This document shows, in pieces, positions 44,457 to 50,142 of a stretch of 64,000 nucleotides of DNA. This DNA comes from Nisaea sp. (lineage in GTDB: Bacteria; Pseudomonadota; Alphaproteobacteria; Thalassobaculales; Thalassobaculaceae): assembly GCF_017640745.1 (NCBI RefSeq), contig NZ_JAEPQA010000012.1:1-64000 (forward strand), in the 5' to 3' direction. Each line of letters begins with the position of its first letter. Positions within the stretch are counted from its first letter, which is position 1. Both the position numbers and the translations under genes were made by a program. The notes under the pieces were generated by a model. It was not told the DNA's origin. It made no database searches and saw only the letters and a list, made by a program, of their open reading frames with translations.

Positions 44457-44475
44457 TCCGCACTCCCCTTACGTC

Positions 44476-44503
44476 GTCATCCCGGCTCTCCGGCCGGGAT
44501 GAC
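44476..44503 (+). repeat. 28-bp palindrome between DUF849 and lepA genes (REP-like, possible terminator)
   Basis: GTCATCCCGG-CTCTCCGG-CCGGGATGAC is an inverted repeat with 10-base arms. The arms resemble the ends of the two larger elements at 48363 and 48761 (GTCATTCCGG / CCGGGATGAC). It lies between convergent genes and is followed by AAAAGCTTTTTTT, so it may also act as a terminator. Confidence 0.7.
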
Positions 44504-47568: not shown

Positions 47569-48354
47569 ATGCCGCATATCGACGCCAACGGGATCAGGCT
47601 GCATTACCGCATCGACGGGCCGGACGGTGGCCGTCCGCTGCTGCTCTCCAACTCGCTCGCCTCCAATCTCTTCATGTGGGACCCGCAGATCGACGCGCTG
47701 ACCGGTGCCGGATTCCGCGTGATCCGCTACGACAGCCGGGGCCACGGCCAGTCCGACGCGCCGGAAGGGCCCTACTCGATCGAGATGCTGGCGCAGGATG
47801 CGGTCGCCCTGCTCGACGGGCTCGGCGTGGCGAAGGCCGATTTCTGCGGCCTGTCGAAGGGCGGCATGGTCGGCCAGATGCTCGGCGTCCGGCATGCGGA
47901 CCGTGTCGGCAAGCTGATCCTCGCCGATACCGGGGCCTACATGCCGACGAAGGAAATGTGGGACGGCCGGATCAAGACGGTGGAGAAGGGCGGCATGGAG
48001 GCGGTGGCCGACGCCACGCTGGAGCGCTGGTTCACCCCGGAGAGCCGGCAGACCCGTCCCGGCGATATCGAGAAGGTGCGCGCCATGATCCTCGGCACGC
48101 CGCCGCAAGGGTTCATCGGGTGCAGCCGCGCCATCCAGGCGATGGACCAGCGCGGCACGATCGGCGCGATCACCAATCCGACGCTGGTGCTCGTCGGTGC
48201 CGAGGATCCGGCCACCACGCCGGCCCATGCGCAGGAGATTCATGGGCTGATCAAGGGCTCGTCCTATGTCGAGATCCCGGAGGCGGCGCATTTCGCGAAC
48301 TTTGAGCAGCCGGAGCTGTTCACGAAGGCGATGCTTGAGTTTCTGGGGAGCTGA
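47569..48354 (+). CDS. pcaD: 3-oxoadipate enol-lactonase-like alpha/beta hydrolase
   Basis: A 261-residue alpha/beta hydrolase with the PcaD pattern. The nucleophile Ser lies in CGLSKGGMVGQ (about residues 88-98), the acid Asp in GAEDPATTP and the His in PEAAHFANFEQP. The amino end MPHIDANGIRLHYRIDGP and the RGHGQSDAP block fit 3-oxoadipate enol-lactonases of the beta-ketoadipate pathway, but no other pca genes are near, so a related esterase is possible. GGGGAGG lies 6 bases before the ATG at 47569. Confidence 0.83.
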   Translation: MPHIDANGIRLHYRIDGPDGGRPLLLSNSLASNLFMWDPQIDALTGAGFRVIRYDSRGHGQSDAPEGPYSIEMLAQDAVALLDGLGVAKADFCGLSKGGMVGQMLGVRHADRVGKLILADTGAYMPTKEMWDGRIKTVEKGGMEAVADATLERWFTPESRQTRPGDIEKVRAMILGTPPQGFIGCSRAIQAMDQRGTIGAITNPTLVLVGAEDPATTPAHAQEIHGLIKGSSYVEIPEAAHFANFEQPELFTKAMLEFLGS

Positions 48355-48362
48355 TCTTTGTC

Positions 48363-48446
48363 CGTCATTCCGGCGCAGGCCGGAACCCAGGGGGGCGAAG
48401 GGCGGGTTCTATGATCCCCTGGGCCCCGGCCTTCGCCGGGGTGACG
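48363..48446. repeat. ~84-bp palindromic element, copy 1
   Basis: An imperfect inverted repeat: the left arm CGTCATTCCGGCGCAGGCCGG and onward to CCCAGGGG pairs with the right arm CCCCTGGG and onward to GGGGTGACG, 26 of 31 positions matching. It aligns along its full length, in the same orientation, with the element at 48761-48843. It starts 8 bases after the pcaD stop codon and ends 2 bases before the GIY-YIG stop codon. Confidence 0.85.
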
Positions 48447-48448
48447 AT

Positions 48449-48724
48449 TTAAATCAGCTCATCGAACAGGTCGCGCCATTGCGGATTGCGTTCCTCGATC
48501 AGGCGGAGCTTCCAACTGCGGCGCCAGTCCTTCATCTGCTTCTCGCGGCGGATGGCGCGATCCATAGAAGCATGGGGTTCGAAATAGACCAGAAGCCTAA
48601 CGCCGTAGCGTCCGGGTACCACGCCCGATCTGTGCTCCGAAACGCGCTTCAGAAGATCGCTGGTCACGCCGATGTAGAGCGTCCCGTTGCGCTTGCTGGC
48701 GAGGATGTAGACGTGGGGTTGCAT
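48449..48724 (-). CDS. GIY-YIG nuclease-superfamily protein
   Basis: A 91-residue single-domain protein of the UPF0213/URI type. The amino half has HVYILASKRNGTLYIGVTSD (GIY-YIG motif as VYI...YIG), followed by LLKRVSEH with the catalytic-type Arg and AIRREKQMK with the metal-binding Glu. The start used is ATG 48724; an in-frame ATG at 48766 lies inside repeat copy 2. The gene is embedded between two direct copies of a palindromic element (48363 and 48761), 2 bases from the first. The function of these small proteins is not established; DNA nicking at or near repeats is an inference. Confidence 0.85.
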   Translation of the reverse strand: MQPHVYILASKRNGTLYIGVTSDLLKRVSEHRSGVVPGRYGVRLLVYFEPHASMDRAIRREKQMKDWRRSWKLRLIEERNPQWRDLFDELI

Positions 48725-48760
48725 GTCGTGGACATGCGAGGAATACGGACGGTTTTTCAC

Positions 48761-48843
48761 CGTCATTCCGGCGTAGGCCGGAACCCAGGGATCGAGGATC
48801 GAGTTTTATGTTCCTCTGGGTCCCGGCCTGCGCCGGGATGACG
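48761..48843. repeat. ~83-bp palindromic element, copy 2
   Basis: Left arm CGTCATTCCGGCGTAGGCCGG with CCCAGGGA, right arm CTCTGGG with CCCGGCCTGCGCCGGGATGACG. The middle differs from copy 1 but shares the pattern GTT-T-TATG. It lies directly upstream of the GIY-YIG gene (and covers an alternative upstream start) and next to the terminator of the aspartate aminotransferase gene. Confidence 0.85.
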
Positions 48844-48854
48844 GATTTGTTCGA

Positions 48855-48889
48855 AAAGAAAAAGCGCCGCCCGGATGGCCGGGCGGCGC
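48855..48889 (-). terminator. Rho-independent terminator of the aspartate aminotransferase gene
   Basis: Reading minus: the 11-base stem GCGCCGCCCGG / CCGGGCGGCGC (48889-48864) with a 4-base loop, followed by TTTTTCTTTT to 48855. It lies 26 bases after the stop codon at 48916. Confidence 0.9.
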
Positions 48890-48915
48890 CTCTCATTCAA
48901 TAGCTCGCAGATGCG

Positions 48916-50142
<1,227 letters not shown>

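Follow-up and report, generated by a model that had tools for sequence, protein, structure and literature searches.

The small GIY-YIG gene in the window (the whole stretch of 64,000 nucleotides of Nisaea sp. DNA analysed here) is bracketed by two head-to-head dimers of CGTC REPs, and its product, likely kin of the Ssn nucleases, is a strong candidate for the enzyme that these repeats have been missing. Since the bracketing is gene-specific, a cognate enzyme-repeat pair is very likely. In addition, the swapping of types at shared sites, the mixed dimers and the cassettes at sites that elsewhere hold a solo element suggest that the repeats spread by the replacement of other CGTC elements after a cut. 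With a little more belief than doubt, we propose a two-part element, made up of a GIY-YIG endonuclease and CGTC REP dimers, that undergoes homing-like replacement at fixed sites.

The locus is laid out as follows; a monomer from elsewhere in the window is listed with it.

44475..44502, plus strand: 28-bp monomer palindrome, type B (sequence comparison with congener G004)
48363..48446, plus strand: copy 1, 84-bp head-to-head CGTC REP dimer, type A (sequence comparison, folding)
48449..48724, minus strand: predicted GIY-YIG nuclease gene, 91 residues, start MQPHVYILAS (Pfam, alignment of relatives)
48761..48843, plus strand: copy 2, 83-bp head-to-head CGTC REP dimer, type A (sequence comparison, folding)
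48854..48889, minus strand: G+C hairpin with a T run after it, probably the intrinsic terminator of the aminotransferase gene (by eye)

On the outside, the unit is flanked by what we take to be an aminotransferase-like gene and by an ORF that was labelled pcaD-like in the preliminary description of this DNA, both assignments being putative. That description had seen two imperfect palindromes around a small GIY-YIG gene, and both palindromes were confirmed: identity between the copies is 83% in same-strand and 74% in opposite-strand alignment, and when folded as single-stranded DNA they gave z scores of -5.3 (copy 1) and -9.3 (copy 2), with none of 200 shuffles folding as well. The right-hand unit of copy 1 opens with CGTCACC rather than CGTCAT, and its sixth base thereby departs from the CGTC REP definition. 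As had been described, the stop codon of the gene (TAA, 48449-48451) lies 2 bases from copy 1. An upstream ATG at 48766 had also been pointed out, and it is indeed in frame and within copy 2, but the conserved start of the relatives is 48724 and we therefore rejected 48766 as the start codon; with the shared start, the protein has 91 residues and the gene begins 36 bp from copy 2. The "direct" orientation of the two copies did not hold as a set feature, since the copy adjoining the aminotransferase gene is inverted in place in congener G001 (94% identity when reversed, 76% as is). The hairpin at 48854..48889 is probably the aminotransferase gene's own terminator and is distinct from copy 2.

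According to the available text of Di Nocera 2013 (PMC3733652), CGTC REPs carry a CGTC tag, an 8-9 bp stem starting with AT, a 4-5 nt loop and a CCA-like tail, occur mostly as head-to-head dimers, are commonest in Alphaproteobacteria and are represented in Neisseria by the dRS3 repeats. The window repeats share the CGTC tag, the AT-initial stem of 8-9 bp, a short loop and the head-to-head dimer layout, but they are regularly accompanied by a GIY-YIG gene. Genome-wide, the dimer occurs at 22 near-full-length places, the two window copies included (counted from 42 match rows), a 12-base core occurs 78 times and a looser unit pattern 123 times, with no occurrence of the reversed core or the reversed pattern. 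The same genome (G000) contains three GIY-YIG matches, one of which falls within a 664-residue frame and was taken as UvrC. Both remaining small genes are bracketed by CGTC dimers, of type A at the window gene and of type B at the second gene (C15). Short monomer palindromes of 28-30 bp with a terminal CGTC (once TGTC) tag were also observed, four in the G000 stretches and three in those of congener G004, and these look like collapsed dimers. At the site of the 44475-44502 monomer, the G004 sequence instead contains a complete B dimer, and after it come about 1.6 kb of additional sequence that include an A dimer.

The window protein matches the PF01541 GIY-YIG domain with 48.4 bits against a curated cut-off of 22.6 (E 1.2e-12), and at E 0.001 Pfam returned no other family for it and no HUH tyrosine transposase. 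Residues Y6, Y17, G19, R27, E61 and N80 are invariant in all 27 aligned sequences, and Y6 and Y17 are only nearly invariant among 31; by comparison with I-TevI, the two motif tyrosines and the glycine, arginine, glutamate and asparagine have active-site roles. A structure model with a mean pLDDT of 90.8 supports the GIY-YIG fold, and its best matches to solved structures were UPF0213 at E about 1e-4, Slx1 at E 0.03 and, more weakly, I-TevI at E 0.3, with only UPF0213 (BH0048, PDB 1zg2; E 1.1e-4) falling below E 0.001. Judged from sequence and model, the catalytic residues and the GIY-YIG fold are retained and the protein is a predicted nuclease. It lacks three residues (the GFT loop) that are present in nearly all aligned relatives, the loop phenylalanine being nearly invariant, and the window copy of the nuclease may for this reason be impaired. 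Searches against defence and phage families gave one marginal match each (E 0.009 and 0.008). The homologue from N. gonorrhoeae is 58.5% identical over 87% of the query (E 3e-29), and its gene has flanking CGTC units.

Matches to the window protein were found in 43 of 116 relatives, 40 of them at E < 1e-16. At 85 loci (90 less five without a tblastn match), strict CGTC units were present on both sides of the gene in 23, on one side in 18 and on neither in 44, against 9 units in 147 kb of far sequence. When the flanks were instead compared with each other irrespective of motif, a test that lost one further locus as too short, they matched in 53 of the 75 close-family genes whose flanks were readable, leaving 22 without matching flanks, compared with no match in 420 shuffles and 15 matches in 672 mismatched pairs; three of nine remote homologues also have matching flanks. 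The association extends over many phyla, where a strict CGTC unit was found within 400 bp of the gene at 68 of 76 loci, on both sides at 46, as opposed to 34 units over 320 kb of distant sequence, and where 32 of the 76 loci passed the motif-free test compared with 2 of 262 offset controls (the 76 are 80 named-record loci less four with short flanks, the 80 having been retained from at least 589 relatives). The pairing of gene and repeat is not due to chance. Two contrary outcomes were looked for and neither was found: the gene is not mostly free of the repeats, and the element is unlike a plain terminator.

Several loci in this survey drew attention for other reasons. The remote homologues at L136 (E about 1e-8) and L138 (E about 1e-7) lie between repeats of quite another kind, and the bracketing habit may thus be wider than CGTC REPs. 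At L151, in an S. meliloti pSymB record, the GIY-YIG gene lies between repeats of type CCTCATCCCTGTGCTCGTCACAGGGAT, which we take to resemble the RIME elements of rhizobia. Two records, NZ_CP119140.1 (2.17 Mb) and NZ_AP026896.1 (4.94 Mb), are chromosome-sized, yet recorded as plasmids.

Genomes that carry two or more such genes reveal that a gene mostly has a repeat of its own. Across 20 genomes of this kind, with 55 genes, own flanks matched in 41 of 55 cases and cross pairs in 16 of 120, and a gene's own flanks beat those of the other gene in 40 of 43 informative comparisons, with three losses. Genes of the same type are 86% (A), 96% (C) and 71% (D) identical across congeners, and two types within one genome are 59-64% identical. 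One type-x gene of G003 is 71-74% identical to the type-C and type-A genes, no further from them than one D gene is from the other (71%). The tree of the nine genus proteins is weakly supported.

Gene presence also tracks repeat number. The median number of units was 21.5 in the 40 genomes with the gene and 3 in the 76 without it, and 30 or more units were present in 18 of 40 and 2 of 76 genomes, respectively; in this count G060, G063 and G069, which have weak matches only, were scored as gene-less, and the unit pattern misses some repeat types. Because copies and genomes are related, the p-values are descriptive. Two repeat-rich genomes, G002 with 97 units and G077 with 102, contain GIY-YIG genes of UvrC length only, which indicates that the repeats can outlive the small gene or do without it. 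Bracketing in most relatives, gene-specific repeats and the association of repeat number with gene presence together bear out the analogy, drawn in the preliminary description, with REPs that are paired with a RAYT enzyme.

Repeat types were then compared between congeners, using types A-E as defined by hand-made patterns that left 35 of 129 units from the G000 stretches and 27 of 127 from those of G004 unclassified. The counts were A18 B63 C5 D6 in G000, which has genes A and B; A6 B22 C69 D3 in G001, which has genes A and C; and A12 B39 C25 D23 in G004, which has genes C and D. Most resident types are thus in excess, with B, C and D each peaking, among these three congeners, where their own gene is resident. 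Type A breaks the pattern, with six units in G001, which has an A gene, and 12 in G004, which has none, and the commonest type in G004 is B despite the lack of a B gene.

The sites themselves are largely shared between species. Of 22-32 mapped element sites, 20-26 were occupied at the orthologous gap in another species, compared with 1-4 of 107-156 element-free gaps in the same stretches; because the stretches were chosen for holding an element, occupancy is inflated and empty sites are under-sampled. The stretches were taken around the first 100 of 123 units, the first 100 of 110 and elsewhere fewer, and the elements covered are a subset. In each species comparison, 10-15 of the occupied orthologous sites shared no type; between G000 and G001, for instance, 20 of 22 sites were occupied and 15 of these 20 differed in type, mostly B against C. 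Dimers of mixed type made up 3 of 24 typed dimers in G000 and 10 of 32 in G004. Under a strict rule, 7 of 28 sites counted as "empty", and when five such sites were aligned, three held degenerate or other elements, one held a CGTCATCC stub and one was apparently empty. No fresh insertion within the genus was found among the sites compared, and no target duplication was readable because the spacers diverge.

At four of the five cassette sites seen in the genus, a cassette in one species faces a solo element in another. Comparison of the orthologous aminotransferase intervals, as had been suggested for the window locus, showed that the A-gene-A cassette is shared with G001, that a single B dimer takes its place in G004, where the aminotransferase is 99% identical, and that G002 has other sequence there, by eye without such an element. 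The B-gene-B cassette of G000 (C15) faces a 29-bp B monomer in G004, which could have been left by deletion of the gene from between its flanking copies. In G000, a solo B dimer (the C33 site) lies opposite the C-gene-C cassette of G004, and G001 has a C cassette at this same site in the opposite orientation. In G003, a cassette of a further type stands where G000 has a monomer and G004 a degenerate element. At the fifth site, both G003 and G004 carry a type D cassette, without any swap. As a general explanation, simple deletion of the gene was considered and does not fit where the solo element differs in type, that is, at the window site and the C33 site of G000. Outside the genus, a dimer-gene-dimer cassette on A. 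lipoferum plasmid AZO_p3 (L157, 2851-3469) interrupts the suf operon, where it lies between sufB and sufC; this cassette is absent in all six Azospirillum congeners compared.

We infer a mechanism that runs from recognition and cutting, including the strand that is cut and its single-strandedness, to a copying step. A small GIY-YIG endonuclease would be paired with cognate CGTC-tagged REP dimers, of which one pair brackets the gene and the others stand solo. The enzyme would recognise the hairpin of its own repeat type in single-stranded DNA and cut it, and through repair of the cut an element of the same type, or the dimer-gene-dimer cassette as a whole, would be copied into sites already occupied by a CGTC element, perhaps by way of the CGTC tag that the elements have in common. 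In this manner the type of the resident enzyme would slowly displace older types at fixed intergenic sites, much like the allele of a homing endonuclease.

Homing-like replacement at fixed sites is favoured over RAYT-like jumping, in which the enzyme would excise single-stranded dimers or cassettes and paste them at new sites, the shared sites being hot spots. We regard such transposition as unlikely, while noting that the bracketing layout is that of RAYT genes, that cleavage of REPs on single strands is reported for TnpA-REP in the available text of PMC8266576, that the A. lipoferum cassette is missing from its six congeners and that the C cassette is oppositely oriented at one site in G001 and G004. 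Against it, co-occupied orthologous sites far exceed occupied element-free gaps, and since element ends lie near the same points in aligned pairs, replacement fits better than scattered insertion. To our knowledge, GIY-YIG enzymes moreover have no strand-transfer chemistry. Of the earlier idea of the GIY-YIG protein as a mobiliser, the enzyme-repeat pairing is well supported, while mobilisation by the protein stays putative: the comparative data favour replacement at occupied sites over free hopping, G002 and G077 have the repeats without the gene, and the direct orientation is not a set feature. It is rather improbable that the repeats serve as a genome mark, such that the nuclease, as is said of Ssn in Neisseria, cuts repeat-bearing single-stranded DNA and shapes uptake or recombination while the repeats spread passively. 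In agreement with such a role, the window protein is 58.5% identical to its N. gonorrhoeae homologue, which is likewise encoded by a CGTC-flanked gene, but by itself the role leaves unexplained the gene-specific bracketing by two copies and the cassettes at solo-element sites.

The two further alternatives dispense with the enzyme. Concerted evolution, with recombination among dispersed copies homogenising the repeats and the gene as a passenger, accords with the mixed-type dimers (3 of 24 in G000, 10 of 32 in G004) and with the persistence of repeats without the gene in G002 and G077, but it is very unlikely, given that types are specific to their genes within a single genome, that most resident types are in excess and that repeat number goes with gene presence. 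It is scarcely credible that the repeats act as plain terminators or stabilise mRNA, with the gene present by accident. Elements in the G000 stretches are mostly intergenic, with four inside long ORFs, and convergent gaps are used slightly above average (14 of 55 against 73 of 354), as such a role would have it. TTTT, however, lies near only 11 of 112 element ends in these stretches, so that the elements are unlike intrinsic terminators, and a terminator scan of 48300-49000 flagged none, the scan being insensitive, as it also missed the likely aminotransferase terminator; on these two grounds we rejected the plain terminator reading. The recurrence of the bracketing across phyla contradicts an accidental placement of the gene. 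A structured RNA was likewise rejected, as none of the 18 Rfam matches reached the gathering score and most were to microRNA models that fit any long hairpin.

Several known systems come close to the proposed element. Like the RAYT/TnpA-REP systems, or REPtrons, as outlined in the available text of PMC8266576 and PMC3733652, it combines an enzyme gene bracketed by its own REPs, solo repeats elsewhere and one repeat per enzyme. RAYTs, however, are HUH tyrosine enzymes with GTAG REPs, whereas here the flanks belong to a GIY-YIG enzyme with CGTC repeats, and neither an HUH tyrosine transposase nor a GTAG tag was found. According to PMC3733652, CGTC REPs apparently have no transposase of their own, and 'giy' never appears in the main text of that paper; in the available text of the RepRanger paper (PMC12306157), the sole mention of CGTC is a citation. 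Our literature search, which did not extend to the Ssn work, found no paper with both GIY-YIG and 'extragenic palindromic'. The pairing of GIY-YIG genes with CGTC REPs may nevertheless be partly in print already.

The window protein resembles Ssn in its GIY-YIG domain, its length of about 91-94 residues, its identity of 58.5% to the N. gonorrhoeae protein, which presumably belongs to the Ssn family, and the CGTC-flanked gene in Neisseria. Ssn proteins (2025) are reportedly site-specific single-stranded GIY-YIG nucleases of Neisseria and others, described with a focus on single-stranded DNA cleavage and transformation; described here, and perhaps to some extent there too, are the dimer-gene-dimer cassette, the gene-specific types and the replacement of types at fixed sites. 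I-TevI and other GIY-YIG homing endonucleases, which spread their own allele by replacement at a single site, share the catalytic fold (a weak match, E 0.3) and, under the proposed scheme, would share the logic of allele replacement. Unlike I-TevI, the present system has no intron, no added DNA-binding domain within its 91 residues and many dispersed sites instead of one. By sequence or fold, UPF0213 (BH0048) and Slx1 are the nearest solved structures, and we know of no repeat partner for either.

CGTC REPs, the dRS3 repeats of Neisseria included, have been on record as a class since 2013 with no enzyme assigned to them, and a cognate nuclease present in many phyla makes both their origin and their upkeep testable. 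We tentatively extend the homing-like scheme to CGTC REPs as a class, with rather less confidence than for the element itself: each nuclease would drive its own type through fixed sites and displace the types of rival nucleases, so that genomes would record successive takeovers. If the pairs behave as proposed, they would amount to a ready set of sequence-specific hairpin nucleases. In addition, if the nuclease drives the type swaps, it would provide a second route, unlike RAYT transposition, for the spread of tiny repeats in bacteria.
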